Shown piece after piece: positions 16,612-38,386 of a stretch of 49,056 nt of DNA (positions within the stretch are counted from its first letter, which is position 1; each line of letters begins with the position of its first letter). The translations under genes were made by a program, and so were the position numbers. The notes below the pieces were generated by a model. It was not told the DNA's origin and ran no database searches. It worked only from the letters and a program-made list of their open reading frames with translations. The DNA lies in contig CANQLR010000020.1 in NCBI GenBank assembly GCA_947624745.1, positions 1 through 49,056 of the forward strand, read 5' to 3'. The DNA comes from an uncultured Clostridia bacterium. Its GTDB lineage: Bacteria; Bacillota; Clostridia; Oscillospirales; Ruminococcaceae.

Positions 16612-18045
16612 ATGATAAATAATATTATCACAAAATATCACAACTTGTCGCTTCCAGTAAAAGCGACTTTATGGTTTACGATGAGTCAATTTTTCGTTAA
16701 AGGAATTGGTTTACTCACCACTCCATTTACTACTAGAATTCTGTCTACAGAAGAGTATGGGAGAATTAGTACATTTGCTTCGTGGGAAAGTCTCTTTCTA
16801 GTTTTAAATACGTTTTCATCAGGTCATGCAGTAATGAACCTATGCGTTAAATACAAGGACAGAAAATGTATACTTTCAAGTGTAATTATTTTGAATATTC
16901 TTTTGTCTCTAATGTGGGGAATGATTATTCTACTTACAGCAAGTACCATAATCCAATTTACGGGACTATCAATAATCATGATAATGTGTTTATATTTATC
17001 CTGCATATTTCGAAACATAATTAGCGGATGGACATTTGTTAAACAGTATGAATATTCATATAAAATAATAGTTATTGAAACAATCATTTATTCGCTAGTT
17101 ACATCTGTGGGAGGACTTTTGTCTATAGCAATTATTTCTAAAACCGCTGAGGCGAAGATAATTCCGCAAGTCGTTGCTGCATCATTGATTGGAATGCTCA
17201 TTGTAATAAGTAGTTTAAAAAATAGTAAAATAAAATGTAATTCTGATATATGGAAATATACCCTTAACTTTTGTATTCCACTTTTACCGCATTATTTATC
17301 GGAAATAGTTTTGATGAGTAGTGATAAAATAATGATTGATCGTATGTGTGGTTCATCTGATGTTGCTATTTACAGCGTTGCATATGCTGTAGGATCGTTG
17401 ATAATGATGCTGGCTTCGGCAGTTGATTCTGCGTTTGCTCCATATCAATATCAAAAAATAACGAATAAAGAATATAAAACACTTGCTATTAATACAAATT
17501 ATATTATAATTTTCGTGGCTTTTAGTCTTGACGTGATAATGCTGTTTGGACGGGAGATTGTTTTGGTGTTTGGTGGAATAAAATATATTCAAAGCATTTC
17601 GTTGATTATTCCTATCAGCCTAGGAGTATTTTTCAATTATATATTTAGACTTTTTGCTAGGGTGCAGGAGTATTTTGAACAAAAGTATACTATAGTTATT
17701 GCCTCTGTCAGTTGTGCGCTATTAAACATCATACTCAATTATATCTTTATCAATATATATAGCTATAAGGCCGCCGCTTATACAACATTTTTCTGCTATT
17801 TTGTTTTCTGCTTTTTACATTATCTATTTTATCGCATGGCGTGCAGGAAACACATTGGACAGGAAATATACGATATAAAAGGATTGGCGCTGATTTCGGC
17901 AGCGATGATGGTTTCAACTTTAGTTATTGGCATTATAAGCAGATTATTTATATTGAAATATATAATACTTTTAGTTGCAATAATAATCGTTTTATTGCAA
18001 CGAAAGAGAATCCTTAACTTTGTTAAAACTATCAGGGAGAAATGA
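16612..18045 (+). CDS. Wzx-type polysaccharide flippase
   Basis: A 477-residue membrane protein with about 12-14 hydrophobic segments, from the polysaccharide-transport branch of the MOP superfamily. The N-terminus P-F-T-T-R-I-L-S-T-E-E-Y-G-R is the family signature, and the central S-S-D-K-I-M-I-D-R-M-C-G and V-A-Y-A-V-G-S-L are typical. It would flip undecaprenyl-linked repeat units outward for the polymerase at 12567. The upstream 124 bp are AT-rich and the ribosome binding site is weak. The stop overlaps the next start (ATGATGA), which joins the AT-rich block to the more GC-rich module that follows. Confidence 0.88.
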   Translation: MINNIITKYHNLSLPVKATLWFTMSQFFVKGIGLLTTPFTTRILSTEEYGRISTFASWESLFLVLNTFSSGHAVMNLCVKYKDRKCILSSVIILNILLSLMWGMIILLTASTIIQFTGLSIIMIMCLYLSCIFRNIISGWTFVKQYEYSYKIIVIETIIYSLVTSVGGLLSIAIISKTAEAKIIPQVVAASLIGMLIVISSLKNSKIKCNSDIWKYTLNFCIPLLPHYLSEIVLMSSDKIMIDRMCGSSDVAIYSVAYAVGSLIMMLASAVDSAFAPYQYQKITNKEYKTLAINTNYIIIFVAFSLDVIMLFGREIVLVFGGIKYIQSISLIIPISLGVFFNYIFRLFARVQEYFEQKYTIVIASVSCALLNIILNYIFINIYSYKAAAYTTFFCYFVFCFLHYLFYRMACRKHIGQEIYDIKGLALISAAMMVSTLVIGIISRLFILKYIILLVAIIIVLLQRKRILNFVKTIREK

Positions 18046-18689
18046 TGAAAATGCAAATTCTCGCCCACCGCGGCTATTGGAACTCAAATATCCCCTCCAA
18101 CTCGCCCTTGTCACTAAAAAACGCCCTCGAAAACGGCTATGGCTTTGAATCCGACGTTCGGGACTATATGGGTCGCATGGTAATATCCCACAACATCGCC
18201 GACGCCTCATGTCAGGACGCCGAAGAGGTTTTCAAATGGCTTTCCGAATACGGCGACAGGTACTGCTTCGCCATAAACATCAAAGCCGACGGGCTCAAAG
18301 ATATACTCAGGGGATATTTTGAAAAATATAACATCAAAAACTATTTTCTTTTCGACATGTCCATTCCGCAGATGGTCGAATTTGCAGAGAGGGGACTTCG
18401 GTTCTTTACTCGCCGAAGCGAATATGAAACCAAGCCTGTCATGTATGAGCAGTCGGCTGGCGTTTGGATAGACGGCTTTAAGCGGATCAACTGGATAACC
18501 GAGGAGCTTCTTCGGAGGTATATTTCGGACGGCAAAGAAGTGTGTCTTGTCTCACCCGATCTTCACGGCAAAACAGACTACAAGCTGTTTTGGGACAAGG
18601 TCAGAAGTTGGAATATTGATTTTTCAAAGGTCCTCCTCTGCACCGATCACCCGGACGAAGCTCGGGAATTCTTTAAAGAAAAGCTTTAG
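18042..18689 (+). CDS. Glycerophosphodiester phosphodiesterase-like protein
   Basis: A 215-residue TIM-barrel protein related to GDPD enzymes. It has A-H-R-G-Y-W, E-S-D-V-R-D (metal-binding Glu/Asp) and I-S-H-N (second His) in the order expected. It is shorter than typical GDPD (about 240-250 residues). GDPDs split glycerophosphodiesters to glycerol-3-phosphate and an alcohol; here the location with a HAD phosphatase, two nucleotidyltransferases and a cupin suggests work on a small phosphorylated precursor rather than lipid turnover (inference). The ATG overlaps the flippase stop. Confidence 0.78.
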   Translation: MMKMQILAHRGYWNSNIPSNSPLSLKNALENGYGFESDVRDYMGRMVISHNIADASCQDAEEVFKWLSEYGDRYCFAINIKADGLKDILRGYFEKYNIKNYFLFDMSIPQMVEFAERGLRFFTRRSEYETKPVMYEQSAGVWIDGFKRINWITEELLRRYISDGKEVCLVSPDLHGKTDYKLFWDKVRSWNIDFSKVLLCTDHPDEAREFFKEKL

Positions 18690-18698
18690 GAGTATAAC

Positions 18699-19331
18699 AT
18701 GGTAAAGGCAATATTATTTGACATGGATGGCGTATTAATTGACGCCAAGGACTGGCACTATGAGGCGCTGAATAAGGCACTCGGCTTGTTCGGAATTGAG
18801 ATAAGCAGATACGATCATCTGCATACCTTTGACGGGCTTCCTACAAAGGTCAAGCTGAAAATGCTCAGCGAGCAGTATTATCTCCCCGAGCAGCTCCACG
18901 GGTTTGTAAATCAGATGAAGCAACAGTACACGGCGCGGATGATACATGAAAAATGCCACCCGATGTTTCACCACGAATATGCGCTCTCAAAGCTTCACAA
19001 CGACGGCTATAAGATAGCGGTCTGTTCAAATTCTATACGCTCAACTATTGAACTGATGATGAAAAAGTCGATGCTTATTGATTATCTAGATCTCATCGTC
19101 TCAAACGAGGACGTTAAAAAGGCAAAGCCGGATCCCGAAATGTATCTGACTGCAATTTCAAAATTCGGTCTTAAGCCGGAGGAATGCATAGTCGTCGAGG
19201 ACAACCCCAACGGGATAGCGGCGGGAAAGGCAAGCGGTGCTTCGGTTCTTGAAGTCGCGACGGTTTATGATGTGAACTACGAAAATATAAAGAGGCTTAT
19301 TGACAAGGTCGACGGAGGCGAAAATGGTTAA
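18699..19331 (+). CDS. HAD-superfamily hydrolase, beta-phosphoglucomutase/phosphatase type
   Basis: A 210-residue HAD protein with motif I F-D-M-D-G-V-L-I-D, a helical cap after it, motif II V-C-S-N-S, and motif IV V-V-E-D-N-P-N-G-I-A-A. This layout is shared by small phosphatases and beta-phosphoglucomutase. The substrate cannot be read from the sequence; the module context suggests a sugar or polyol phosphate. It follows the GDPD-like gene by 9 bp with GGAG before the ATG, and the next gene starts inside its last codons. Confidence 0.82.
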   Translation: MVKAILFDMDGVLIDAKDWHYEALNKALGLFGIEISRYDHLHTFDGLPTKVKLKMLSEQYYLPEQLHGFVNQMKQQYTARMIHEKCHPMFHHEYALSKLHNDGYKIAVCSNSIRSTIELMMKKSMLIDYLDLIVSNEDVKKAKPDPEMYLTAISKFGLKPEECIVVEDNPNGIAAGKASGASVLEVATVYDVNYENIKRLIDKVDGGENG

Positions 19332-20043
19332 TATACTTATTCCTTCAATGGGAAAATCCACATTTTTTGAGGACAGCTTTTTCCCGAAGCCTTTAATTGA
19401 AATCAAGGGCAGGACCATGCTTGAGACTGTCATCGAGAATTATTCCTGGGTCGATCCAAAAAACTATATCTTCGTTTTTGACGACAAGGATTGCAGTGAG
19501 TTTCATCTTGATTCTTCTGCAAAGATTTTGTCCCCATTGAGCATTGTTATAAGGCTTAGAAATCAGACAAGAGGAGCGCTCTGTACTTGCTTGATGGCGG
19601 TGGACTACATAAATAACGATACGCCGCTTATAATCGCGAACAGCGACCAGATAATTGATGTTGATTATAAAGACGTCATCAGCCGTTTTGACAATATAAA
19701 AGCAGACGCGGGAGTCATAACATTCCCGAGCATTCACCCGCGCTGGAGCTATATTAGAAAGAATGACGATGAAGTCGTTGAAGTCGCCGAAAAGAGACCT
19801 CTTTCAAAGGACGCAATAGCGGGATTTTACTATTTCAGAAAAGGCTCGGACTTCATTGAGAGCGCAAAGAATGCGATCATAAAGGACAACTGCCTTAATG
19901 GGAAATTCTATATATCCGCCTCAATAAATGAGATGATTCTTATGGGCAGGAAGATTTCATACTGCGAGATCCCGAAAGAAAAATATCATTCGTTCTATTC
20001 TCCCGAAAAGATAAAGGAATATGAGGAGGGGAGAGCCTTATGA
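19324..20043 (+). CDS. Nucleotidyltransferase-like protein
   Basis: A 239-residue GT-A fold protein. N-terminus I-L-I-P-S-M-G-K-S-T-F-F is a degenerate nucleotide-binding loop (no GXGTR), followed by F-P-K-P-L-I-E-I-K-G-R-T-M-L, and N-S-D-Q near residue 105. GGAGGCG at 19315-19321 supports ATG 19324. It looks like a paralogue of the gene at 20374 with a less canonical first loop, so it may be catalytically altered. Start and stop overlap its neighbours, so the module is transcribed as one unit. Confidence 0.75.
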   Translation: MVNILIPSMGKSTFFEDSFFPKPLIEIKGRTMLETVIENYSWVDPKNYIFVFDDKDCSEFHLDSSAKILSPLSIVIRLRNQTRGALCTCLMAVDYINNDTPLIIANSDQIIDVDYKDVISRFDNIKADAGVITFPSIHPRWSYIRKNDDEVVEVAEKRPLSKDAIAGFYYFRKGSDFIESAKNAIIKDNCLNGKFYISASINEMILMGRKISYCEIPKEKYHSFYSPEKIKEYEEGRAL

Positions 20044-20360
20044 AAACCGCGAAGCTTAGTGACATGACAAAGGGCTGGTTTGTAGGCAATTTCGAGCCTA
20101 CCCTGTATAGAACAAACGACGTCGAAGTAGCGGTAAAATTATATTCAGCGGGAGCATATGAAAAGAAGCACTACCACAAAATAGCGACGGAAATAACGGT
20201 CGTTACAAAGGGAACTATACGCATGAACGGCGTAGAATATTCGGCGGGCGACATTATAATAATGGAGCCGAACGAGGCGACGGATTTTTATGCCGTGACC
20301 GACGCGGAGAACGTCGTGGTGAAGCTGCCGGGTGCAAATAACGATAAATACGAGGTTTAA
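20040..20360 (+). CDS. Small cupin-domain protein
   Basis: A 106-residue single-domain cupin. Metal-binding residues are visible in K-K-H-Y-H-K-I-A-T-E-I-T (HXH...E), and the second motif is P-N-E-A-T-D-F-Y-A, where the usual His is replaced. It overlaps the preceding nucleotidyltransferase by four bases. Cupins in sugar clusters act as isomerases or epimerases or as binding proteins; the role here is unknown. Confidence 0.75.
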   Translation: MKTAKLSDMTKGWFVGNFEPTLYRTNDVEVAVKLYSAGAYEKKHYHKIATEITVVTKGTIRMNGVEYSAGDIIIMEPNEATDFYAVTDAENVVVKLPGANNDKYEV

Positions 20361-20373
20361 AGGAGAAAATAAA

Positions 20374-21093
20374 ATGCTTAATATAGTTATACCTATGGCG
20401 GGTCGGGGGAGCAGGTTCGCAAAGGCAGGATATGAGCTTCCGAAGCCGCTTATAGACGTGAACGGCAGACCGATGATAGAGGTAGTTACAAGAAATATTG
20501 CCCCGAAATGCGAACACAGATTCATCTACATCTGCCAGCAGGAGCATCTTGAAAAATACGCCCTTGCAGAAAAGCTTGAAAAGATTTCTCCTAACTGCGC
20601 GATAGTCACGGTAGATCACATAACCGAGGGCGCTGCGTGTACGGTTCTTTTGGCGGAGAAATACATAGATAACGACGACCCGATGATGATCGCAAACAGC
20701 GATCAGTTTGTGGATACGGATATAAACGAATATCTTTCTGCTATGGGCGACAGCGACGGGCTTATTATGACTATGCCCGCGGACGATCCGAAGTGGAGCT
20801 TTATTAAATATGACGAAAACGGATACGTCACAATGGTGAGGGAAAAGGAAGTCATTTCAAATGAGGCGACAGTCGGGATTTATAACTATGCCAAGGGTTC
20901 CGACTTTGTAAAGTATGCAAAGCAGATGATAAGAAAAAATATCCGCGTCAACAACGAGTTTTATGTCGCGCCGGTCTATAATGAGATGATTGAGGACGGA
21001 AAGAAAATCGTTTTCAAAGATGTCGGCGAAAAGATGCACGGCTTGGGAACGCCGGAGGATTTGGAAGAGTTTTTACACGAATTTGTAAAATAA
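20374..21093 (+). CDS. Sugar/small-alcohol phosphate nucleotidyltransferase
   Basis: A 239-residue nucleotidyltransferase with I-V-I-P-M-A-G-R-G-S-R-F at the N-terminus, L-P-K-P-L-I-D-V-N-G-R-P-M and A-N-S-D-Q-F. AGGAG at 20361-20365 precedes ATG 20374. Proteins of this kind activate sugar phosphates or small phospho-alcohols with CTP or UTP. Together with the GDPD-like, HAD, cupin and paralogous nucleotidyltransferase genes it suggests production of one extra activated substituent for the polysaccharide (inference). The gene is the last before the poly-G hairpin. Confidence 0.78.
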   Translation: MLNIVIPMAGRGSRFAKAGYELPKPLIDVNGRPMIEVVTRNIAPKCEHRFIYICQQEHLEKYALAEKLEKISPNCAIVTVDHITEGAACTVLLAEKYIDNDDPMMIANSDQFVDTDINEYLSAMGDSDGLIMTMPADDPKWSFIKYDENGYVTMVREKEVISNEATVGIYNYAKGSDFVKYAKQMIRKNIRVNNEFYVAPVYNEMIEDGKKIVFKDVGEKMHGLGTPEDLEEFLHEFVK

Positions 21094-21121: not shown

Positions 21122-21169
21122 TTATTACCTTCCTTCGCGGATGCAAAATTCCGCGGGGGGGGGTAATAA
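21122..21169 (+). promoter_or_regulatory. 20-bp RNA hairpin containing a G9 tract, upstream of the FkbH operon
   Basis: The left arm 21122-21141 and right arm 21150-21169 can pair over 20 consecutive positions when G-U pairs are allowed, with an 8-base loop. The outer 8 bp (TTATTACC/GGTAATAA) and inner 6 bp (CGCGGA/TCCGCG) are perfect. The middle six pair TTCCTT with six of the nine G. The fit is exact at nine G, so any slippage would bulge or shift the stem. No T run follows, so it is not a simple terminator. A small palindrome ATAAC-T-GTTAT follows at 21166-21176. It ends about 30 bp before ATG 21200 and could affect read-through or translation of the operon. Confidence 0.65.
21155..21163 (+). 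repeat. Poly-G tract, G9, intergenic
   Basis: Nine consecutive G located in the right arm of the hairpin at 21122-21169. It is the only one of the four long G tracts that lies outside a coding frame. Flanks C on the left and TAATAACTG on the right resemble those of the tract at 10212. Confidence 0.85.
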
Positions 21170-21199: not shown

Positions 21200-22918
21200 A
21201 TGTACACCTTTAAATCGCTAAGAAAAAGCTCCAAGCAACCCGTGGCGGACGGCGCTCGCCGCCTTGCCGTCTTAGGTAACATCTCCACCCAATTCCTTGC
21301 CGTTGCAATCCGCGGTTACGCCGCGCTTGAGGGCTTGCCGCTGTCGGTTTTTGACGCCGACTACAACCAGATCGAGGCGCAGCTTCTGGATCCCGGGTCG
21401 GAGGTCTACGGCTTCGGGCCGGACAGCATACTCCTATGGCTCGGGACGGACAAGCTATACGAGGAATTTTTGGATCTGCCGCTCGAGGCGCGCTCGGGGT
21501 TCGCCGAGTCGGTGATGCAAAAGATTACGATGTACTGGGATCTCATCGCGCAGCACAGCCGGGCGAATATCCTTCAAATGAACTTCACAGAGATCGACGA
21601 TCGTGCCCTCGGCAACTACTCCTGCAAGGTGGATTCGGCGTTTGTCTACCAAATTCGCAAGCTGAATTTCATGCTTGAGGAGGCGATGATATCCCGAAAA
21701 ACCGTTTATCCCGTTGACCTTTTTTCAATACAGATTAGGCTCGGGACAGAGGTGTTCTACGACGCTCCGCTCTACTACAACGCCAAAATGACGGTCTCGA
21801 CCGACGCGCTTCCCTATGTTGCAAAGGCAGTCATCGACGTCCAAAAAGCCCTCGCAGGAAGAATCAAAAAATGCGTCGTTTTGGACCTTGACAACACCCT
21901 TTGGGGCGGGGTCATCGGCGACGACGGCATGGATAATATTGAGATAGGCGAGCTCGGCCGAGGGCACGTTTTCACCGACTTCCAGCGCTGGCTCAAGCAG
22001 CTTAAGGAGTGCGGAATAATCCTCTGCGTGTGCAGCAAAAATAACGAGGACACCGCGAAAAAGCCGTTCGAGGAGCACGACGAGATGATCCTGCGGCTCT
22101 CGGATATCGCGCTTTTCGTCGCGAATTGGGAGGACAAAGCCTCGAATATCCGGCTCATTCAAAAAACGCTGAACATCGGCATGGACTCAATGGTGTTCAT
22201 CGACGACAACCCGTTCGAGCGCAACCTCGTGCGGCAGATGATACCCGAGATAGAAGTCCCCGAGCTTCCCGAAGACCCCGCGCTGTATCTCGGCTATTTG
22301 CAGGAGCAGAACTACTTCGAGACCGCCTCCTTCACCGGCGCGGGCTCTGACCGCACGAAGCTCTATCAGGCGGAATTTGAGCGCACCAAGCTGATGATGT
22401 CGTTCGAGTCGATCGACGGCTACCTCGAAAGCCTCGAGATGATAGGCGAGGCGAAGCCGTTTGAGGAGTCGAAATTTTCGCGGATAGCGCAGCTCACCCA
22501 GCGCTCGAACCAGTTTAACCTGCGCACCGTTCGCTATACCGACGCTGATATCCAGTCAATCGCAAGCGACCCGAATTATGTCACACTGTATTACACCCTC
22601 CGCGACAAATTCGGCGACCACGGCTTAGTCGGCGTTATCATCATGAAGAAGAAAAACGGGGAAGAGCTTTTCATCGACACATGGCTGATGAGCTGCCGCG
22701 TTCTCAAGAGGGGCATGGAGGAATATATCGTCAACTGCTTCATGCGCGAGGCTAAAAACCGCGGATTTAAGCGGGTCTACGGCGAATATATCCCGACCCC
22801 GAAGAATGCGATGGTCAAGGATATTTACAAGACTATGGGCTTTACGGAGATATCTGAAAATAATTACGTCATGGACGTAAGCAAGTACGAAGAAAAGAAA
22901 ATTTATATAAAGGAGTAA
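21200..22918 (+). CDS. FkbH-like HAD-IIIC acyl-loading protein
   Basis: A 572-residue FkbH-family protein, first gene of a ten-gene operon. The N-terminal 200 residues look like the SGNH-like domain of this family (A-V-L-G-N-I-S-T-Q at about 23). The HAD-IIIC phosphatase domain follows with D229-L-D-N-T-L-W-G-G-V and F-I-D-D-N-P-F-E-R, and the C-terminus is a GNAT-like region (L-T-Q-R-S-N-Q-F-N-L-R-T). Characterised members take 1,3-bisphosphoglycerate, dephosphorylate it and load glyceryl onto an acyl carrier protein. The carrier protein gene starts 6 bp downstream, so the same reaction is likely here. AGAGG at about 21188 supports ATG 21200. Confidence 0.88.
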   Translation: MYTFKSLRKSSKQPVADGARRLAVLGNISTQFLAVAIRGYAALEGLPLSVFDADYNQIEAQLLDPGSEVYGFGPDSILLWLGTDKLYEEFLDLPLEARSGFAESVMQKITMYWDLIAQHSRANILQMNFTEIDDRALGNYSCKVDSAFVYQIRKLNFMLEEAMISRKTVYPVDLFSIQIRLGTEVFYDAPLYYNAKMTVSTDALPYVAKAVIDVQKALAGRIKKCVVLDLDNTLWGGVIGDDGMDNIEIGELGRGHVFTDFQRWLKQLKECGIILCVCSKNNEDTAKKPFEEHDEMILRLSDIALFVANWEDKASNIRLIQKTLNIGMDSMVFIDDNPFERNLVRQMIPEIEVPELPEDPALYLGYLQEQNYFETASFTGAGSDRTKLYQAEFERTKLMMSFESIDGYLESLEMIGEAKPFEESKFSRIAQLTQRSNQFNLRTVRYTDADIQSIASDPNYVTLYYTLRDKFGDHGLVGVIIMKKKNGEELFIDTWLMSCRVLKRGMEEYIVNCFMREAKNRGFKRVYGEYIPTPKNAMVKDIYKTMGFTEISENNYVMDVSKYEEKKIYIKE

Positions 22919-22924
22919 ATTAAA

Positions 22925-23173
22925 ATGGAGAGAAACGAAATACTTAAAAAGATTACCGAAATCGCGCGCGATGTCTTTGACAACGACGAGGTCGAGCTCA
23001 CGGAGCAGACCACTGCCGCCGACGTCGAGGAGTGGGACAGCCTCTCGCACTTAAGCCTTGTCAGCGACATCGAGGACGAGTTCGGTATAACATTTACCCT
23101 CGCCGAGGTGTCCGGGTCGAAGAATGTCGGCGAGCTTGTCGACGCGATAATCAAGCACATGGGTGAAAAATAA
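22925..23173 (+). CDS. Acyl carrier protein
   Basis: An 82-residue acidic carrier protein with E-E-W-D-S39-L-S-H-L; Ser39 is the expected phosphopantetheine attachment site. Its W-D-S-L context is that of specialised carrier proteins (FkbJ/DltC-like) rather than the fatty-acid AcpP (usually G-A-D-S-L-D). It lies between the FkbH-like gene, which should load it, and the rest of the operon. The stop overlaps the lipoyl-protein start. No phosphopantetheinyl transferase is present in this window. Confidence 0.9.
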   Translation: MERNEILKKITEIARDVFDNDEVELTEQTTAADVEEWDSLSHLSLVSDIEDEFGITFTLAEVSGSKNVGELVDAIIKHMGEK

Positions 23174-23532
23174 TGCTTTACTATTCTAAAAATCATCTTT
23201 GGCTTAAAGCGGATGAAAATACCGCCGAGATTGGTCTTACCGACTATGCCGCAGAAAGGCTCGGAAACATATTTTTTGTAAATCTTCCGGACGTCGGTGA
23301 GCACCTTTCTGCGGGCGAAAAATTCGGCGACGTTGAGAGCGTAAAAACGGTATCGGATCTTATCTCGCCTGTTGACGGCGAGATCACGGAGGTAAACGAA
23401 GCGCTTTTGGACGAGCCGGAGGCTATCTCGGAGGATCCGCTCGGAACATGGCTCGTCAGGGCGCGTATCGAAGCCGTTCCCGACGGACTTTTGAGCGAGG
23501 AAGAATACGGCGCGTTCAAGGAAAAGCTATGA
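23173..23532 (+). CDS. GcvH-like lipoyl-domain protein
   Basis: A 119-residue homologue of the glycine cleavage H protein. The lipoyl attachment site is V-E-S-V-K58-T-V-S-D, with I-S-P-V-D-G-E-I after it as in true H proteins. No other glycine cleavage genes (P, T) are nearby. The neighbours are a dihydrolipoyl dehydrogenase and a lipoate ligase, so the set can lipoylate and re-oxidise/reduce this carrier by itself. I infer a redox or acyl-relay function for the operon rather than glycine catabolism. Start and stop overlap both neighbours. Confidence 0.87.
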   Translation: MLYYSKNHLWLKADENTAEIGLTDYAAERLGNIFFVNLPDVGEHLSAGEKFGDVESVKTVSDLISPVDGEITEVNEALLDEPEAISEDPLGTWLVRARIEAVPDGLLSEEEYGAFKEKL

Positions 23533-24830
23533 TATACGATCTTGCGATATTAGGCGGAGGGCCGGCGGGCTATTCTGCGGCGTTTGAGGCCGTAAAGCTC
23601 GGGCTTAGCGCGATCTTATTTGAAAAACGTGAGCTTGGAGGAACCTGCCTCAACCGGGGCTGCGTGCCGACCAAATTTTTGGCGCATACTGCCGAGCTGT
23701 ATCACAGCGCGTTCAACAGCCGCGAGTACGGTATCATTTCGGAAAAGCCGGTTTTGGACTATCTTGCCGCCTGTGAGAAAAAGGAAAGTGTCGTTTCGGA
23801 GCTGCGAAGCGGCCTTGAGCAGTCGATGAGGCTCAAAAAAATAGCGGTCGTGAACGGCTCTGCCAATATCACGGACAGCAGCCGTATAACCTGCAACGGC
23901 GAAACTTATGAAGCAAAAAATATTCTCATTGCGACGGGCTCGATCCCCGCAGAGCCGCTTGCAGAGGGAGCTTTGACGAGCGACGAGATTTTGGAGCTTA
24001 AAAGCCTTCCGAGGTCTATGAAGATAATAGGCGGAGGAGTTATTGCGGCAGAATTTGCGCACATTTTCAGTCTCCTTGGCGTTGAAGTTACTATAGCTAT
24101 TCGCGGAGAGAGAATTCTAAGAAAATGGGACAAGGAAATCGCCGTCGCGCTGACCCAGAGCTTTAAAAGGCGGGGCATAAGGATACTCACGAACCAAACG
24201 CCGGAGCAGCTTTCGGAAAGATCCGCAGACGTTGTTCTTTCGGCCGTGGGAAGAAGACCGAACCTTTGCGGGGTGAACACTTCGCTCGTTGAGACCGACG
24301 AAAACGGCGGGATCGTTGTCGACCGCTGCTTCAGGACAAAAACAGAAAATATCTTCGCCGCGGGGGACGTGATCTCGAATAGCCGTATGCTTGCCCACAC
24401 AGCGATGGAGCAGGGAAAGACTGTCGCGAGAGTTGTCGCGGGCAGGGGAGCCGCTTTGCCGTCTGCTGTGGTGGAGTGCATATACACAAGCCCAGAGGCG
24501 GCGTCGGTCGGGCTTACCGAGGCCGAGGCTAAGGAGCGGGGCGTTCAGGTTGTTTCGGCAAAGAGCGGTATGCGCTCCAACGCACGGACGCTTATTGCCG
24601 GCACGGACAGAAGCTTTATTAAGATACTTGCAGATAAGAACACGCGAAAACTTATAGGCGCGCAGCTTGTCTGCGACCGTGCAAGCGACATAGCGGACGA
24701 GCTGGCGCTTGCAATAAATCACGGCTTTACGGTCGAGGACCTTTTAAAGGCCGCCCGACCTCACCCGAGCTTCTGCGAGGCAATAACCGACGCTGCGGAA
24801 GCTCTTTCGGAGAAACTAAATGAAGTATAA
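23529..24830 (+). CDS. lpdA: Dihydrolipoyl dehydrogenase
   Basis: A 433-residue FAD-dependent disulfide oxidoreductase. It has the FAD motif G-G-G-P-A-G-Y, the redox pair C40-L-N-R-G-C45-V-P-T-K, a second Rossmann motif I-G-G-G-V-I-A-A-E, and the C-terminal H-P-S-F-C-E in place of the usual H-P-T-L-S-E. Expected reaction: NAD+-linked oxidation of dihydrolipoyl groups, or the reverse. ATG 23529 overlaps the H-protein stop (ATGA); an upstream GTG-type extension would lie inside that gene. At 433 residues it is slightly shorter than typical Lpd (about 460). Confidence 0.9.
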   Translation: MIYDLAILGGGPAGYSAAFEAVKLGLSAILFEKRELGGTCLNRGCVPTKFLAHTAELYHSAFNSREYGIISEKPVLDYLAACEKKESVVSELRSGLEQSMRLKKIAVVNGSANITDSSRITCNGETYEAKNILIATGSIPAEPLAEGALTSDEILELKSLPRSMKIIGGGVIAAEFAHIFSLLGVEVTIAIRGERILRKWDKEIAVALTQSFKRRGIRILTNQTPEQLSERSADVVLSAVGRRPNLCGVNTSLVETDENGGIVVDRCFRTKTENIFAAGDVISNSRMLAHTAMEQGKTVARVVAGRGAALPSAVVECIYTSPEAASVGLTEAEAKERGVQVVSAKSGMRSNARTLIAGTDRSFIKILADKNTRKLIGAQLVCDRASDIADELALAINHGFTVEDLLKAARPHPSFCEAITDAAEALSEKLNEV

Positions 24831-25527
24831 ATATTGTTTTTCAAACGGCTTTGACCCGTATAAAAACCTTGCCTTAGAGCGCTGTTTGCTCGGTCTTGCG
24901 GACAAAAGCACCGCCATACTGTATCTTTGGCAGAATGACAACACTATCGTCATCGGAAAAAATCAGGACGTTTATTCCGAATGCCGAGTTGACAAATTTA
25001 CCTCTCGCGGCGGAAGGATAGCAAGGCGTATGTCCGGCGGGGGAGCGGTGTATCACGACCTCGGAAACCTAAATTTTTCGATAATTACGGACAGGGCGCA
25101 GGACGACGAGGGGGCATATTTTGACCTTATTCTTCGTATGGCCGCGAGCCTTGGGATAAAGGCCGAGCCGAGCGGCAGAAACGACGTTATATTTGGAGGC
25201 AGGAAATTTTCGGGCAGCGCGGTCTACGACGACGGCGGAAGGGTCTGCCGGCACGGAACGGTGCTTGTGAGTACGAATATTGAAAAGATGACCTATTATC
25301 TCACTCCCGAGCGCGAAAAGCTTAAGCGCCACGGCGTTGAAAGCGTTCGCTCACGGGTAATGAATCTCAGTGAAGTCAGTTCCGAAATAACGGTCGAAGC
25401 GGTGAAAAAGAGATTTATCGAGGCCGCTGGCGCGGAGCCGTTAAATGCCGAGGTAAACAGGAGTGAGCTTGAAGAATATACCGAGCTTTTCAGCTCGGAA
25501 AAATGGATATACGGAGGACAAAAATGA
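24820..25527 (+). CDS. lplA: Lipoate-protein ligase A-like protein, short form
   Basis: A 235-residue lipoate ligase/transferase. Motifs are R69-R-M-S-G-G-G-A-V-Y-H-D80 for lipoyl-adenylate binding and G-G-R-K129-F-S-G-S-A with the catalytic Lys. It lacks the roughly 90-residue C-terminal accessory domain of E. coli LplA, so it may need a partner for lipoate adenylation or act as a lipoyl/octanoyl transferase. It overlaps lpdA at its start and the dehydratase gene at its end. The likely target is Lys58 of the operon's H-like protein. Confidence 0.87.
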   Translation: MKYKYCFSNGFDPYKNLALERCLLGLADKSTAILYLWQNDNTIVIGKNQDVYSECRVDKFTSRGGRIARRMSGGGAVYHDLGNLNFSIITDRAQDDEGAYFDLILRMAASLGIKAEPSGRNDVIFGGRKFSGSAVYDDGGRVCRHGTVLVSTNIEKMTYYLTPEREKLKRHGVESVRSRVMNLSEVSSEITVEAVKKRFIEAAGAEPLNAEVNRSELEEYTELFSSEKWIYGGQK

Positions 25528-26462
25528 AGATACTTTCTCTCTCGGGATTTGTTCCCGAACAGATCTGCGACACGGTCCGCTTTACCGGGTATTCCGGGGG
25601 CAGAGCTATCTCTCACTACTGCGGATACGCCGCGGACTACATCTCGCAGGTGCTGAACGACGATTCTATAGACGGCACGGTGTTTCCAAAGTCCTGCGAC
25701 AGCGCAAGGATAATATCGAGCTATCTCGGAAGCGCGGATAAATTCCTGTACCAGCTTCCCGTACCTGCAAGGAGGGACGGGGCCGCCGTCAGCTATTTTG
25801 CGGGAGAGATAAGGGATTATAAGGAGGCAGTCGAGGCGCACTACGGCGTTCGGCTCGAAGACATAAAGGAGCGCGCCGAGGCGGTAAACAGGCGAAACGA
25901 AAAAATAAAAGAGCTTTACGAAGGGCTTGAGGATATTTCCTACAGCGACTATCTTTGCGGGATACATAAAATGCTCACGTTGCCTCTTGCAGAGCAGTCT
26001 TTGCCCGAACCGAAAGCGGCGAGCGCAGGCGGAAAAAGAGTCTATCTCGTCGGCTCGTTTTTGGCTGCCGAGGGGATATTAGACACGCTCGAACGCTCCG
26101 GCCTCAACGTGGTGGGGGACGGCCTCCCCGAATCGGGCAGGCTTGTGAGCGCAGCTCCCTGCAAAATTGATGGCGACATTTACAAGAACATCTCCGAAAG
26201 CATACTTTCCGCGAGGCTGTCTCCCACGCAGAATAACTTCGGGGAAATATTGGAGCGAGACATCAAAGAGATAAAGGAAAAGAAAGCCGTGGGCGTGATT
26301 TTCCTGACCCAGAAATACTGCGAGCCATATGACTATCTCTATTCGGTCTACGAAAAAAGGCTTGCTGCGGAAGGGATAAGGTCGTTGAAAATTTCACTTT
26401 CAAATTCCGAGGATTACAAAAGCTCTGAGCTTGCCGTCGAGGCATTCTCGGACATGATATAA
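25524..26462 (+). CDS. 2-hydroxyacyl-CoA dehydratase-type subunit (HgdB/BcrC family)
   Basis: A 312-residue protein of the 2-hydroxyglutaryl-CoA dehydratase D family. The conserved cysteines expected to bind an active-site [4Fe-4S] are visible: C33 in I-S-H-Y-C, C58 in F-P-K-S-C-D-S-A, and C266 in T-Q-K-Y-C-E-P. Characterised enzymes of this family use one-electron ketyl-radical chemistry to remove an alpha-hydroxyl group from a 2-hydroxyacyl thioester. At 312 residues it is shorter than HgdA/B (about 370-480). GGAGGA at 25512-25517 supports ATG 25524, which overlaps the lplA stop. It would pair with the next gene product. Confidence 0.87.
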   Translation: MKILSLSGFVPEQICDTVRFTGYSGGRAISHYCGYAADYISQVLNDDSIDGTVFPKSCDSARIISSYLGSADKFLYQLPVPARRDGAAVSYFAGEIRDYKEAVEAHYGVRLEDIKERAEAVNRRNEKIKELYEGLEDISYSDYLCGIHKMLTLPLAEQSLPEPKAASAGGKRVYLVGSFLAAEGILDTLERSGLNVVGDGLPESGRLVSAAPCKIDGDIYKNISESILSARLSPTQNNFGEILERDIKEIKEKKAVGVIFLTQKYCEPYDYLYSVYEKRLAAEGIRSLKISLSNSEDYKSSELAVEAFSDMI

Positions 26463-26473
26463 AGGGGTGCAGC

Positions 26474-27622
26474 ATGGCGCAGTCTGTTATTAAGCTCCAA
26501 TCGTCGCTGATGAGGGAGTATTACAAATATTTTTCTAAATATGCAAGGGGCAAGTCGCCCGAGAAAAAGGTCGCTTGGGTCACGGCGTTCACGCCTGTTG
26601 AGATTCTTGAAGCTCTCGGAATTTTATATTACTACCCCGAGAGCTACGCTGCCGTAATTGCCGCGAGCGAGCGGGAGCAGCCGCTCCTTAAAAAGAGCGA
26701 GCAGTGCTTTTTGTGCCGCGATTGCTGTTCATACTCCTGCTGCATAGAGGGCTGCTTAGAGCTTGAGGACGGCCCGCGCGGTACTCCCCCGAAGCCGGAT
26801 ATACTTATTGCCACAAACAATCAGTGCAACACTCTCCCAAACTGGTGGAACATTTTAGCCGAGAGATACAATGTGCCGCTCATAGTGATAGACTACCCCG
26901 GCGAGGCAGTCCCGTGCGAAAGGGCCTACGAATATGTTACCGCGCAGCACAGAGAGCTTATCTCACGTCTTGAGGAGCTTTCGGGCAACAGGCTCGACGA
27001 GAGCGTGCTCGGACATTTTATAGAAAACAGTGAACAAAGTGTTGCTTGGTGGAAAAAGGTCGCCGCGGCGCTTCCCGAGAAGGAAATAAAGCCGACCGCG
27101 CTTTTTGACGACATATCCTATCTCATAACGGCAAGGTGCAGCCCCGACACCGCCGAGCTTTACCGCGCGATATATGACGAGGTGAGCGCGCTCCCCGAAG
27201 CAGACAAGGGTCTAATACCTCTTTTCTGGCTCGGCTATCCGCTGTGGTATCATGCGGATCGGTATCTTTCCGAATGCCTTGATGGCTTCAGAATATGCGG
27301 CTCAAACTATATAACCTGGTGGAGCCTTGACTACAGCGGAAATGACGTCTATGAAATGCTTTTTTCGGCGTATAACTACACGTTTTTGAACCTTTCGCAG
27401 AAAACGCGCACCAAGCGCCTCACAAGGCTCATAAAGGACTCCGGGGCGGTCTGCGCGGTAACGCTTCACAATAAAAGCTGCAAGTGCGACTTTGTTTCCG
27501 CAAAGGACATCGGAATACCGCAGGCAGAGCTCGAGATAGACATGATCGACCGTGAGTTTCTGTCGCTCGAAAAGGCTAAAAAGCAGATCGAGCTTTTGAA
27601 GGAGACGGTATGTTCACGATAG
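26474..27622 (+). CDS. 2-hydroxyacyl-CoA dehydratase-type subunit, cysteine-rich
   Basis: A 382-residue second subunit of the same family. It starts with the usual helical segment and V-T-A-F-T-P-V-E-I-L-E-A-L-G. It then has an unusual cysteine cluster, with Cys at 78, 81, 84, 85, 89, 90 and 94, and C118 in N-N-Q-C-N. Ordinary family members have far fewer cysteines in this place, so an extra Fe-S or metal site is possible. Further conserved-looking positions are T-A-R-C-S-P-D and R-I-C-G-S-N. It follows the first subunit by 11 bp and overlaps the activator gene by 13 bp. Confidence 0.85.
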   Translation: MAQSVIKLQSSLMREYYKYFSKYARGKSPEKKVAWVTAFTPVEILEALGILYYYPESYAAVIAASEREQPLLKKSEQCFLCRDCCSYSCCIEGCLELEDGPRGTPPKPDILIATNNQCNTLPNWWNILAERYNVPLIVIDYPGEAVPCERAYEYVTAQHRELISRLEELSGNRLDESVLGHFIENSEQSVAWWKKVAAALPEKEIKPTALFDDISYLITARCSPDTAELYRAIYDEVSALPEADKGLIPLFWLGYPLWYHADRYLSECLDGFRICGSNYITWWSLDYSGNDVYEMLFSAYNYTFLNLSQKTRTKRLTRLIKDSGAVCAVTLHNKSCKCDFVSAKDIGIPQAELEIDMIDREFLSLEKAKKQIELLKETVCSR

Positions 27623-28356
27623 GTATAGACGTCGGCTCGACATACACAAAATACTGCGTTATGAACGACGGGAAAATTGAAAAGCTTTTTTGTGAGAAAA
27701 CGCCGATCCGTCAGAAGGAGTATTTTGAAAACAAAGCGAGAGAGCTTCTCTCGGAATATCCGAACGCAAGTATAGTTTCCTGCGGCTACGGAAGGGAAAA
27801 TATTTCGTCGGTAAAGCGAATTAACGAGCTTACCGCGCTTGCAAGAGGCGTGGGATTTATTTGCCCTGAGTGCGAGCTTGTTTTGGACATAGGCGGTCAG
27901 GATACTAAAATAATCCGCCAGAAAAACGGTCAACTCAAAGAGTTTTTTGTCAATGATAAATGTGCTGCCGGCAGCGGTATATTTCTCTCGAACGTCCTGA
28001 ATATGCTCGGCGAGGAGTTTGATAAAATAGACCTGACCGGGGCCAAAAAGCCCGAAATACAGCTTTCCTCGGTCTGCGCGGTCTTCGCACAAAGCGAGAT
28101 CGTGGAGATTATAGCCGGCCGTTCGCCCGAAGCCTCCGAAATAATACGGTCGGTCATCTGGCAGATATTCAAAAAAGCCGCCCTGCTTCTTGATAAGGTG
28201 GAGGGGACAAATATACTTCTTTCTGGCGGACTTTCGAGAATAACCGGGATAGAAAAATTCGCCGGGCTCTCGCTCGGAAAAGAAGTATCGACCGACCCGA
28301 AGGCGGCATATTTTTCCGCCATCGGCGCGGCGGCAATATCATTTTGGGAGGAATAA
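27610..28356 (+). CDS. ATP-dependent dehydratase activator (HgdC/BadF/BcrA family)
   Basis: A 248-residue ASKHA-fold ATPase with G-I-D-V-G-S-T-Y-T-K near the N-terminus, D-I-G-G-Q-D-T-K, C118-A-A-G-S-G and S-V-C156-A-V-F-A-Q-S-E. In the characterised activators the two cysteines of each monomer of a homodimer hold one bridging [4Fe-4S] that injects an electron into the dehydratase with ATP hydrolysis. Length matches HgdC (about 260). Its overlap with the second subunit supports a working three-gene dehydratase system. The electron donor is unknown; ferredoxin/flavodoxin is usual, while the lipoyl/Lpd pair upstream is a conceivable but unproven source. Confidence 0.92.
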   Translation: MFTIGIDVGSTYTKYCVMNDGKIEKLFCEKTPIRQKEYFENKARELLSEYPNASIVSCGYGRENISSVKRINELTALARGVGFICPECELVLDIGGQDTKIIRQKNGQLKEFFVNDKCAAGSGIFLSNVLNMLGEEFDKIDLTGAKKPEIQLSSVCAVFAQSEIVEIIAGRSPEASEIIRSVIWQIFKKAALLLDKVEGTNILLSGGLSRITGIEKFAGLSLGKEVSTDPKAAYFSAIGAAAISFWEE

Positions 28357-28359
28357 TTT

Positions 28360-29868
28360 TTGGACATCACATCATTTATCTTTCTTGCCTTTGTGGGGAT
28401 AAGCCTGTTCATCTACTGGCTCGTGCCCACAAAAGCGCAGTGGCTCGTTTTGCTTATTGACAGCCTGATCTTTTACTTCGTCACGGTAAAGCCATATACC
28501 TTTATTTACGTCGTGATAAGTGTTTTCACGGTCTGGGGCGCGGCTTTATATTTCCGAAGGACTGACAGCACAAAGAAAAAGCGCCTCGCATTGGCGCTTA
28601 CGGTGGTTTTGAACGTCGGCATTCTCGTCGCGCTCAAATACACGAACATGTTCATCGGGACGTTCAACTACTGGACGGGCAAAAGCGCCGCGACGGTGAA
28701 CTGGATAGCGCCTCTTGCGATAAGCTACTACACTCTATCGCTGATATCCTATCTTGTTGACTGCTACGGCGAGGCCTTGGAGCCGGAGAAAAACCCGTTA
28801 AAGCTGCTTTTGTTCACTACATACTTCCCGCAAATGGTTTCGGGACCGATATGCAGATATTCTCAGACCGGCACGCAGCTCTTTGAGGAGCACCGCTTCG
28901 ACTACGACCGCGTTCTTTCGGGAATGAGGAGAACTCTCTGGGGACTTCTCAAGAAGGTTATCGTCGCCGACCATGTCGCGATGATAGCGAATGTCATGTT
29001 TGACGACCCTGATCTTTTCTCCGGCCCGTGGGTGATAATAGCGGCGTGCGTGTTTATGGTGCAGCTGTTCTTCGACTTCTCGGGCTGCATGGATATAGTT
29101 ATGGGCGTTTCAAAGTGTTTCGGGATAATCCTCCCCGAAAACTTCAACGTTCCCTTCCTCTCAAAGAGCGTTCAGGAATTTTGGGGCAGCCGCTGGCATA
29201 TCACCCTCGGCGCATGGCTGAAGGATTATGTGATGTATCCGATCTCGCGTACAAAGCTCTTCAAAAGGACGAGTAAAAGCTTCAAAAATCGGTTCGGCAG
29301 ATCCGGCCAGAAGATACCATATTACGCAGCGATGTTCGTTGTCTGGACGCTTATGGGTATCTGGCACGGCAGCTCCTGGAAGTATATGATCGGCGAGGGC
29401 TGGTTCTTCTGGATAGTCATCGTCGCGGGACAGGTGTTCGAGCCCGCCTCAAAAAAGCTTAAGGAAAAGCTGCATATCAAGGAGGATAATATTGTATGGA
29501 ACGCGTTTCAAGTCGCAAGAACATTCCTCCTCGTCAGCATCGGCAATATCGCCTTCCGCGCCGACAGCCTCGCAGCGACGTTTTATATGTATAAGAGGGC
29601 ATTTGCGTGGAGTGGGATAATCGAGCAGCTGCATGCGATAGATGACGGCATAAATGGATTTGGAGGTATAGGATCACTTGCTGCCGTCGGCCTTATCGGC
29701 CTGATGCAAATCATCTGCGATTTCAGACAATATGCAGGTAAGAGCAATCAAGAGATTGTGGCGAAAAGACCAATAGTAGTGAGATGGATAATATATTATG
29801 CAGCAATTTTTATCCTGTTCTGGTTCGCACTCGACACGGCTTCTGAGTTTGTATATTTCCAATTCTGA
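28360..29868 (+). CDS. MBOAT-family O-acyltransferase (AlgI/DltB-like)
   Basis: A 502-residue multispanning MBOAT protein. Family features are F-W-G-S-R-W-H-I-T-L-G-A-W-L-K-D-Y-V and M-G-I-W-H336-G, with His336 as the expected catalytic residue. MBOATs of this group pass an acyl group from a cytoplasmic thioester donor across the membrane to a glycan (DltB: D-Ala from DltC to teichoic acid; AlgI: acetyl to alginate). With a dedicated carrier protein in the same operon, a Dlt-like route is the best reading. The TTG start at 28360 has GGGAGG at 28346-28351 and lies 3 bp after the activator gene. Confidence 0.9.
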   Translation: MDITSFIFLAFVGISLFIYWLVPTKAQWLVLLIDSLIFYFVTVKPYTFIYVVISVFTVWGAALYFRRTDSTKKKRLALALTVVLNVGILVALKYTNMFIGTFNYWTGKSAATVNWIAPLAISYYTLSLISYLVDCYGEALEPEKNPLKLLLFTTYFPQMVSGPICRYSQTGTQLFEEHRFDYDRVLSGMRRTLWGLLKKVIVADHVAMIANVMFDDPDLFSGPWVIIAACVFMVQLFFDFSGCMDIVMGVSKCFGIILPENFNVPFLSKSVQEFWGSRWHITLGAWLKDYVMYPISRTKLFKRTSKSFKNRFGRSGQKIPYYAAMFVVWTLMGIWHGSSWKYMIGEGWFFWIVIVAGQVFEPASKKLKEKLHIKEDNIVWNAFQVARTFLLVSIGNIAFRADSLAATFYMYKRAFAWSGIIEQLHAIDDGINGFGGIGSLAAVGLIGLMQIICDFRQYAGKSNQEIVAKRPIVVRWIIYYAAIFILFWFALDTASEFVYFQF

Positions 29869-29878
29869 GGTGATAAAA

Positions 29879-30871
29879 ATGCAGAATAAATTAACTAAAT
29901 TTATTTTAAAATCCGCACTGTTTCTGTTTCCGATTGTTACATTTTGTGTTGCTGTACCTATATTGATTCCAAAATTTCCCATGAGGTTTTTAGACGGAGA
30001 ATATGCGCTGTATCGGCAACAGAAGGACTATATTTTTAATAACGATGATTATAATAGAGTAATAATAACCGGCGATTCAAAAGCGAAAGCGGCATTTCTT
30101 CCCAAGCTTTTGTCAAATGATACATATAATATCGCGCTTGGTGGGCTGACACCGCTTGAGAACTATTACTATTTAAAGGAATATTTGGAAAATAGCGCTA
30201 TACCGGAAACGGTTTTCATTTCTTTTAATCCATTTCATTATATGACATTTGATACATTTTGGACAAGAAGTGTGTATTTTCATAGATTGACCGAGAACGA
30301 TTTAAAAGACACTTATGAGACAGCTTTGCTTTACAAGGATACAGACTATATATTAACCAATTTTGATAAAAATACTTTTGAATATAAGTATTATTCAGTA
30401 AAAAAATATGGAAAGACGTTTATTAAATCGTTTTTTGAAGACAGAAATAAGAAAAATATGGACATGTATAATGATATGTATGAAACAAAGGGGCAGGTTT
30501 ATTTTGGAACCGCCGAGTATTGTGATGGCTGGAGTCAAGAAGCGCAAGTAAAAAATTTTGAAGTTCTTGATATTATAGATTGCTATTTGCATAAAACCAT
30601 TGATATGTGCCTTGATTACGGGATAAATGTCATTATTGAAACTATCCCCATGAACAAAGCCACATATGATGAATGCTATAAAAGTTATTTATCCGATTAC
30701 TCAAATTATATGAAGAAGCTGCAGGAAAAATATCCTCAGATAATTGTTAATACCGAATTATACTATTATGATAATGAATATTTCGGAGATAGCGCTCATT
30801 TTAACCACAAAGGCACTGAGAAATATTCAAAATACATAAAAGAAAAGTACTCTGAAGTTTTTGAAAAATAA
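29879..30871 (+). CDS. Membrane-anchored SGNH-like protein (DltD/AlgJ-like partner)
   Basis: A 330-residue protein with one N-terminal hydrophobic segment (about 9-31) acting as signal anchor, then an extracellular domain. It has I-I-T-G-D66-S67-K-A-K-A, a G-D-S-type first block, and D304-S-A-H307-F-N near the C-terminus, the Asp-x-x-His block of SGNH esterases. In Dlt, Alg and Pat systems a protein of this type works with the MBOAT to complete transfer to the acceptor. GAGG before ATG 29879 fixes the start; an in-frame upstream start would lie inside the MBOAT gene. It ends the operon and is more AT-rich than the genes before it. Confidence 0.78.
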   Translation: MQNKLTKFILKSALFLFPIVTFCVAVPILIPKFPMRFLDGEYALYRQQKDYIFNNDDYNRVIITGDSKAKAAFLPKLLSNDTYNIALGGLTPLENYYYLKEYLENSAIPETVFISFNPFHYMTFDTFWTRSVYFHRLTENDLKDTYETALLYKDTDYILTNFDKNTFEYKYYSVKKYGKTFIKSFFEDRNKKNMDMYNDMYETKGQVYFGTAEYCDGWSQEAQVKNFEVLDIIDCYLHKTIDMCLDYGINVIIETIPMNKATYDECYKSYLSDYSNYMKKLQEKYPQIIVNTELYYYDNEYFGDSAHFNHKGTEKYSKYIKEKYSEVFEK

Positions 30872-35971: not shown

Positions 35972-35983
35972 GGAGGTCAGGTC

Positions 35984-36442: not shown

Positions 36443-36447
36443 GGGAT

Positions 36448-38234: not shown

Positions 38235-38386
38235 AATATATTGTTGCAGGGCATTTGCCGGGCAAAATAATGGAACGACTAAGAATATTACTTTTATGGC
38301 TGGCGCCGCGGCTGCACATTGAAAAACGCAAGCGCGCATTGCAGCCGGGAATGCCACCTCAAATGGTGTCAGAGACGAGGTGAAAG

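Follow-up and report, generated by a model that had tools for sequence, protein, structure and literature searches.

A ten-gene Clostridia operon combining FkbH, a lipoyl protein, a 2-hydroxyacyl-dehydratase-type enzyme and MBOAT/SGNH export parts, with a possible role in Dlt-like envelope acylation

The Dlt pathway (DltA, DltB, DltC, DltD and DltX) carries out the D-alanylation of teichoic acids. According to excerpts of PMC12148441, DltB receives its acyl group from a carrier protein, and FXYXXF is an acyl-shuttle motif whose tyrosine accepts the acyl group, located on DltX in Dlt and on the C-terminus of the MBOAT protein elsewhere. A discrete acyl carrier protein (ACP) together with FkbH is described in the excerpted text of PMC7489565 for glyceryl-ACP polyketide pathways (tetronates, methoxymalonyl-ACP). 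A stretch of 49,056 nucleotides (contig CANQLR010000020.1 of assembly GCA_947624745.1; hereafter the window) from a gut anaerobe, an uncultured Clostridia bacterium of the Ruminococcaceae, was analysed here, in which FkbH-like and ACP genes form one operon at 21200..30871 with genes for a lipoyl protein and its enzymes, for HgdABC of the 2-hydroxyacyl-CoA dehydratase type and for MBOAT and SGNH proteins. The operon as a whole is tentatively read as acylating the envelope in the manner of Dlt, with another loader and with a novel step that tailors the acyl group, thiol-assisted alpha-dehydroxylation of glyceryl-ACP; the chances of this reading are put somewhat short of even. In its specific form, to which a probability of about 0.38 is given, HgdABC would be an oxygen-sensitive iron-sulfur enzyme, a ketyl-radical reductive dehydroxylase linked to the ACP and dependent on lipoyl, for which dihydrolipoyl-H protein and Lpd would be the stoichiometric reductant in making 3-hydroxypropionyl-ACP for surface glycan acylation.

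Gene content, loader and export parts

Families were assigned by Pfam and NCBIfam profile scans of the ten proteins. The starts of Lpd, HgdA and the SGNH protein were placed at internal ATG codons agreeing with relatives, and residue numbering and searches for HgdA start at 25521, one codon before its ATG at 25524. All ten open reading frames (ORFs) are intact and all lie on the + strand:

21200..22918, + strand: FkbH-like loader, 572 residues; HAD-IIIC phosphatase domain and FkbH N-domain (PF21211, E 6e-65); TIGR01686 at 300.6 bits, above its cut-off of 146.65
22925..23173, + strand: acyl carrier protein, 82 residues; PP-binding domain (PF00550)
23173..23532, + strand: GcvH-like lipoyl protein, 119 residues; PF01597, E 3e-34; lysine within an ES.K.VSD motif by alignment
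23529..24830, + strand: Lpd, dihydrolipoamide dehydrogenase-like, 433 residues; Pyr_redox_2/dim; CxxxxC and HPxxxE present by eye; TIGR01350 at 394 bits, slightly below its cut-off of 408.8
24820..25527, + strand: LplA, short lipoate-protein ligase, 235 residues; LplA-B_cat (PF21948, E 2e-58); aligns to positions 2-242 of the 328-position TIGR00545
25524..26462, + strand: HgdA, HadC-like beta subunit; HGD-D (PF06050, E 8e-30); 3o3m_B, E 2e-11
26474..27622, + strand: HgdB, HadB-like catalytic alpha subunit; HGD-D (PF06050, E 3e-37); 3o3m_A, E 6e-28
27610..28356, + strand: HgdC, ATP-dependent activator; activase TIGR00241 at 168.1 bits, above its cut-off of 125.4
28360..29868, + strand: MBOAT, DltB-like, 502 residues; PF13813; TIGR04091 at 167 bits, below its cut-off of 375
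29879..30871, + strand: SGNH protein, 330 residues; N-terminal helix, GDSK and DSAH blocks, DltD-like fold by model

The junctions range from a 13-base overlap to an 11-base gap: FkbH and ACP are separated by 6 bases, ACP and GcvH overlap by 1, GcvH and Lpd by 4, Lpd and LplA by 11, and LplA and HgdA by 4 (from the ATG at 25524), followed by a gap of 11 between HgdA and HgdB, the overlap of 13 between HgdB and HgdC, a gap of 3 before the TTG start of the MBOAT gene and a gap of 10 before the SGNH gene. A preliminary description of this DNA had named ten tightly packed genes of these families; the packing was confirmed by the intact ORFs with their overlaps or gaps of at most 11 bases, and the family calls by the profile scans.

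Residues D229, D231, N232 and T233 of FkbH (16 distinct rows) and W37-D38-S39 of the ACP (24 distinct rows) are conserved at 95% or above, and the ACP reaches only 16.6 bits against the DltC model (cut-off 68). By analogy with its family, FkbH is expected to form glyceryl-S-ACP from 1,3-bisphosphoglycerate. FkbH, ACP and MBOAT also occur together in four genomes (G124, G155, G173 and G193; loci L093-L096) whose stretches, as far as read, contain neither Hgd nor lipoyl genes, which makes the loader-export cassette separable.

At the export end, the window MBOAT carries the catalytic histidine within IWHGS and a C-terminal FVYFQF. Among 17 MBOATs of at least 430 residues, FXYXXF was found in 14 and WHG in 15; the MBOAT of L018 and one MBOAT of L027 have neither motif and end in LYAQF, and the MBOAT of L072 is cut by the locus end. 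The last protein of the operon gave no match in Pfam or NCBIfam; its sequence has the GDS and D..H blocks. Its model was built from 8 sequences, with a predicted local distance difference test (pLDDT) score of 90.7, and its top five PDB matches were all DltD structures, the first with E 1.3e-4 and a template modelling (TM) score of 0.45, a likeness at the level of the fold only. The Dlt-like MBOAT/SGNH end proposed earlier is supported by the MBOAT motifs and the DltD-nearest model, with FkbH-ACP occupying the place of DltA-DltC. Dlt-like acylation using an FkbH-loaded ACP is regarded as highly probable.

Recurrence of the gene set and its lipoyl proteins

Relatives of HgdB were sought in a contig collection of 84,980 species using six exact peptide patterns, a scan that returns close relatives only, and the loci were annotated by BLAST and by hidden Markov models built from the loci themselves. 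This yielded 37 loci whose HgdB is 45-89% identical across most of the protein, except in the contig-end fragment L041. The loci have a common core of GcvH, Lpd, LplA and HgdABC in one of two gene orders, with the lipoyl genes either before HgdA (the window, L006, L007, L008, L012, L025 and others) or after HgdC (L018, L024, L026, L028, L029, L032 and others). FkbH is encoded within the same locus in 19 of the 37 and somewhere in the genome in 30 of the 37 carriers. For comparison, a sample of the window's order restricted to genomes of completeness at least 90 contained FkbH in 55/247 genomes and HgdB in 2/247, leaving FkbH in 53/245 after removal of the two HgdB carriers, and the enrichment of FkbH in carriers against this sample gave a Fisher p of 3e-12, calculated over different taxon sets and ignoring kinship. 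The E limit for counting FkbH was 0.001 in carriers and 1e-40 in the sampled order; each of the 30 carriers has a best match of 4e-75 or better. The linkage is kept where FkbH is divergent (8 loci, 31-43% identity) and in both gene orders, and FkbH and ACP directly adjoin HgdABC in L029 and L032, which combine a divergent FkbH with the other gene order. Absence of co-occurrence outside this genome had been named beforehand as grounds for giving up the proposal; the arrangement recurs in the 37-locus set. A chance neighbourhood was rejected, the recurrence across HgdB loci being far beyond chance.

Carriage on plasmids was likewise rejected, as a search of 72,556 plasmid records with HgdB at E 1e-30 gave no match. 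Of 286 genomes sampled from the order of G006, only G006 itself has HgdB. The bins of L009, L010 and L011 are labelled Gastranaerophilales (Melainabacteria), and their HgdB proteins are 76-81% identical to that of the window and adjoin it on the tree, which suggests, from sequence likeness, either that the gene recently crossed between phyla or that contigs were misbinned. Within the window-order sample the one other carrier is G189, in which one 35-position GcvH match but no full GcvH and no LplA match were found; its locus (L074) lies at a contig end, with no HgdA seen, a 100-residue ORF with an FkbH match before HgdB, and HgdC matches in three ORFs. This locus may be decayed rather than a counterexample, and the contig end could also explain its gaps.

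The genome of the window (completeness 100) has PF01597 GcvH only in its two operon copies, and the same holds for LplA (PF21948, E at most 1e-10). No match to GcvP (PF02347) or to an E2 acyltransferase (PF00198) was found in it, and for this genome a role of GcvH and Lpd in glycine cleavage was therefore rejected for want of GcvP, and a role in a 2-oxoacid dehydrogenase for want of E2. Across the 37 loci, GcvH is adjacent in 29, and full-length GcvP occurs in none of the genomes concerned. Eight loci are without their own GcvH: L009, L011, L019 and L040 belong to genomes with full GcvP, in all four of which GcvH adjoins GcvP, for L010 the genome shows a fragment of GcvP at the edge of a contig, and in L017, L027 and L041 the contig stops at the Hgd genes. 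The association between loci with GcvH and genomes with GcvP gave a Fisher p of 4e-6 excluding the three cut loci and 1e-4 including them, kinship being ignored. Partial GcvP matches in G002 and G003 (31.5 and 26.9 bits over about 120 of 429 positions, above the 26-bit cut-off) and below-cut-off matches in seven more genomes were not counted. On the HgdB tree, the borrowing of GcvH corresponds to three changes, in the Melainabacteria-labelled group beside the window's clade, in L019 and in Treponema L040, which is on a long branch.

LplA shows a matching distribution, being absent from the locus in 8/8 genomes with GcvP or full E2 and present in the locus in 25/26 genomes without another lipoyl enzyme (the exception is L035), in a table that omits L017, L027 and L041 as contig ends. 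The limit for E2 (E below 1e-60) was chosen after the table had been seen and excludes the weak, partial matches of G019, G034 and G189; with G019 and G034 included, LplA is absent in 8/10. The LplA matches in G018 (L023) and G020 (L025, Eubacterium plexicaudatum) each contain one internal stop codon, by sequencing error or in a broken gene. Because the loci without their own GcvH sit in GcvP genomes or are cut by contig ends, HgdABC appears to need a lipoyl-H protein. Judged from these gene distributions, we hold with considerable confidence that HgdABC requires lipoylated H protein taken from any source in the cell, and the tie of the lipoyl genes to the dehydratase put forward in the preliminary description is upheld by the pattern of GcvH, GcvP, E2 and LplA. 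Redox use of the lipoyl protein appears more likely than acyl transfer, though either may apply.

Cluster ligands, proposed reaction and alternative readings

HgdB is closest to HadB both by sequence and by model (pLDDT 91.8; best PDB match 3o3m, TM 0.88). Excerpts of PMC11971306 give C95, C128 and C380 as ligands of BzdO, with Glu65 as the acid and Tyr97 as the thioester contact, and C36, C73, C100, C263, C293 and C327 as double-cubane ligands of BzdN, and equate the cluster coordination of HadB with that of BzdO. In our alignments, C85, C118 and C336 of HgdB align with HadB cysteines and are likely cluster ligands, C85, Glu56 and Tyr87 align with BzdO C95, Glu65 and Tyr97, and all five residues are invariant in 35/35 rows. 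HgdA has C34, C59 and C267 in 35/35 rows and C16 in 33/35, with Pro and Ser instead of Cys at the positions of BzdN C263 and C293, where HadC as aligned also has no Cys; in HgdC, C118 and C156 are conserved at 95% or above (34 distinct rows). As aligned, the cluster ligands of HgdAB are of the 2-hydroxyacyl-dehydratase type, and a double-cubane reductase was rejected on this ligand pattern for want of Cys at the BzdN C263 and C293 positions. HgdB has additional cysteines, C84 and C90 in 35/35 rows and C338 and C222 in 34/35. In the sequence, C84, C90 and C338 are located beside cluster ligands or close to them; HadB, BzdO and MbdO as aligned lack C84 and C90, and HadB, the sole sequence alignable at C338, lacks that cysteine as well.

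In some loci the neighbourhood of FkbH contains accessory genes. MaoC-like and SDR genes lie between FkbH-ACP and MBOAT in L018 (6249-7399) and L024 (1806-3358), L024 also having a VOC (glyoxalase-fold) gene, and further MaoC-like genes were found beside FkbH in L066 and L069. The MaoC and SDR of L018 and L024 may convert glyceryl to lactyl before HgdABC or handle a 3-oxo product, and the acyl group may differ between loci.

For substrate, lipoyl radical quenching, stoichiometry, product and acceptor, we infer the following sequence of events. FkbH would move glyceryl from 1,3-bisphosphoglycerate onto the ACP, as in its family, and HgdC with ATP and a low-potential electron would activate HgdAB, which in the manner of 2-hydroxyacyl-CoA dehydratases would convert the glyceryl thioester on the ACP into a ketyl radical and expel its alpha-hydroxyl. 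Instead of being relieved by beta-proton loss and electron return, the radical would be quenched by thiol chemistry, with two reducing equivalents given by dihydrolipoyl on the GcvH-like protein, either directly or via the extra cysteines near the cluster. Lpd and NADH would re-reduce the lipoyl group, LplA would attach the lipoate, and the product would be 3-hydroxypropionyl-ACP, from which the C-terminal tyrosine of the MBOAT would take the acyl group, the DltD-like SGNH protein passing it to an extracellular glycan. Thioredoxin and its reductase, which serve ribonucleotide reductase with its thiol-using radical chemistry, provide an analogy for the lipoyl protein and Lpd. Enzymes of the 2-hydroxyacyl-CoA dehydratase type otherwise need only catalytic electrons, and the retention of a three-gene lipoyl set for such an enzyme argues for stoichiometric use; it is hard to see what a redox-neutral dehydratase would do with its own lipoyl protein and Lpd, for which the reductive version has a role. 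Action of HgdABC on FkbH-loaded ACP is considered probable, and a net reductive reaction as opposed to a redox-neutral one is an evenly balanced call.

Several observations weigh against this proposal. Seven of the 37 carrier genomes are without FkbH, including that of L035, whose flanks span about 9 and 10 kb and whose genome has no LplA, and the core has no FkbH nearby in L013, L014, L015 and L037, where FkbH lies on other contigs, as it also does for L010 and L011. Lpd is not adjacent in L016 and is split across two ORFs in L020 and L035. Conversely, no HgdB match was found in G068 (completeness 100), whose FkbH is 67% identical and lies with ACP on a 5.3-kb contig, or in G124, G155, G173 and G193, whose FkbH proteins are 53-54% identical. 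Within HgdB, C118 aligns one residue off BzdO C128, next to a gap, C222 is not special given that BzdO has a Cys aligned with it, and the residue aligned with HadB Ser37 is Ala in 31/35 rows and Ser in 4/35. The MaoC and SDR genes of L018 and L024 are equally compatible with oxo or lactyl intermediates. The Fisher values share the limits of kinship and of unlike taxon sets, and 35 of the 37 carriers are metagenome-assembled genomes (MAGs) by title with no completeness stated; the two strain-named carriers not marked as MAGs are Eubacterium plexicaudatum ASF492 and bacterium 1XD42-1.

The alternative that survives best is a redox-neutral reaction, in which HgdABC would form 3-oxopropionyl-ACP by dehydrating glyceryl-ACP (or, where MaoC and SDR supply lactyl-ACP, would turn this into acrylyl-ACP), a separate reductase would finish the conversion, and the lipoyl protein would carry the acyl group or trap the aldehyde. 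This would suit a ligand set that is that of dehydratases and not of double-cubane reductases (alignments and excerpts of PMC11971306), as well as the position by FkbH-ACP in L018 and L024 of MaoC and of an SDR of the 3-oxoacyl-ACP-reductase kind (below all equivalog cut-offs). However, the window operon contains neither SDR nor MaoC, and the dedicated Lpd and lipoyl protein, together with the glycine cleavage pairing where these are missing, would be left unexplained; we consider this alternative unlikely.

It is less likely still that the substrate of the lipoyl-HgdABC core is a 2-hydroxyacyl group of general metabolism, carried by free CoA or by lipoyl, and that the core is only a frequent neighbour of FkbH-ACP-MBOAT. 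The cores without FkbH nearby (L013, L014, L015 and L037), the seven carrier genomes without FkbH, FkbH-ACP-MBOAT without the core in L093-L096 and FkbH-ACP without it in G068 would all fit such a role, but carriers are enriched for FkbH, FkbH and ACP run into HgdABC in L029 and L032 despite their divergent FkbH and other gene order, and three kinds of acyltransferase (MBOAT, hexapeptide and AT3) are found as neighbours. A similarly low probability is given to NADH, Lpd and lipoyl-GcvH as the electron supply of the activator HgdC in place of ferredoxin or flavodoxin in an ordinary dehydratase reaction, which would account for the constant linkage of GcvH, and mostly of Lpd, to HgdABC but is at odds with the need of such enzymes for catalytic electrons only, with the poor fit of the two-electron lipoyl couple (about -0.3 V) to a low-potential one-electron acceptor and with the location of the extra cysteines in HgdB.

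Acceptor genes, second copy and comparison with described systems

Two features precede the operon:

18042..21093, + strand: five upstream genes common to L008 and L043, candidate for acceptor synthesis
21122..21169, + strand: 20-pair hairpin, after the upstream genes and before fkbH

The five genes are, in order, GDPD-like (by eye, without a Pfam match), a HAD phosphatase, a nucleoside triphosphate (NTP) transferase, a cupin-like gene (below the Pfam cut-off) and a further NTP transferase. Among the loci read, these sugar-type genes recur in L008 and in L043, the contig of L006 beginning at fkbH. Elsewhere, hexapeptide acyltransferases (L016, L025, L026 and L036) or an AT3 protein (L010) are encoded by the core or by FkbH, and L035 is located behind NeuB-type sugar genes. 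Judged by gene content, the theme common to the loci is sugar or glycan acylation, and the acceptor appears to vary because the upstream sugar genes recur in few loci and in others the core is accompanied by hexapeptide or AT3 acyltransferases. Two AT3-like acyltransferase ORFs lie farther upstream in the same polysaccharide locus of the window, at 6428-7447 (PF01757) and 7428-8297 (by eye).

The second operon copy of the window's genome (L043, on contig C37) has the same gene order and the same upstream genes with a different last gene, at L043 16907-17863, encoding a different SGNH-like protein of 16% identity to that of the window; the acceptor or the transferase may thus differ between the two copies. 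A near-identical copy of the hairpin is present in L043 and was not found in L007 or L008. Downstream, 33842-47873 contains serine-recombinase-type ORFs, a phage-type integrase ORF (both by eye) and a Mob_Pre relaxase, which suggests, from these ORFs, an integrated mobile element immediately downstream of the operon.

Among the PMC texts searched, none was found that joins FkbH, 2-hydroxyacyl-CoA dehydratase and capsule, 2-hydroxyacyl-CoA dehydratase and lipoyl, or FkbH, polysaccharide and glyceryl, and the papers that name FkbH with MBOAT concern cyanobacterial peptides. The findings point to a three-carbon acyl group carried on an ACP, to a non-DltA loader for MBOAT/SGNH export and to lipoic acid beyond the classical complexes. 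If the proposal is true, it describes a new bacterial surface decoration route and a new partnership of two old cofactor systems, in which H protein gains a second partner and, in cells that have a glycine cleavage system, is borrowed from it; this borrowing makes the lipoyl link directly testable using purified proteins. Acyl groups on surface glycans affect charge and contact with phage and host.

Each described system is matched in part. The HgdABC proteins share superfamily and activator type with class I benzoyl-CoA reductases and double-cubane proteins, but the six-Cys [8Fe-9S] set is not found, HgdA having three invariant and one near-invariant Cys, and Leu121 of HgdB aligns with BzdO His131. 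Like the 2-hydroxyacyl-CoA dehydratases (HadBC/HadI, HgdAB/HgdC), the operon encodes two HGD-D subunits and an activase and has the Cys, Glu and Tyr of the HadB type; its proteins fall far under the equivalog cut-offs of HadB (123.9 of 750 bits) and HadC (43.1 of 700), and it differs in its linkage to ACP and lipoyl genes, in the extra invariant Cys and in the mostly Ala Ser37 position. FkbH and a discrete ACP are shared with glyceryl-ACP polyketide pathways, whereas a FabH-like enzyme, a glyceryl-ACP dehydrogenase and a methyltransferase are absent from the operon, which has an export acyltransferase instead. As with the lipoate-binding proteins of sHdr sulfur oxidation (PMC6067878), a lipoyl protein is found outside the classical complexes, here with a radical enzyme of the 2-hydroxyacyl-CoA dehydratase type as its partner and not Hdr-like subunits.

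As in the Dlt pathway there is a discrete carrier protein, together with an MBOAT that matches the DltB model below its cut-off and an SGNH protein whose modelled fold is nearest to DltD. In contrast to Dlt, the loader is FkbH, with no AMP-binding (DltA) match in the ten genes, to which the search for DltA was confined, and the C-terminus of the MBOAT, not a DltX peptide, carries the shuttle motif. Gaps of at most 11 bases leave no room for such a peptide inside the operon (ORFs below 60 residues outside it were not listed). MBOATs with the C-terminal motif use acyl-CoA without a carrier protein according to excerpts of PMC12148441, whereas here motif and carrier protein occur together. With no DltA in the operon, the system is not filed as Dlt, nor, its substrate and reaction being predicted ones, as a 2-hydroxyacyl-CoA dehydratase proper; it looks Dlt-like at its export end.

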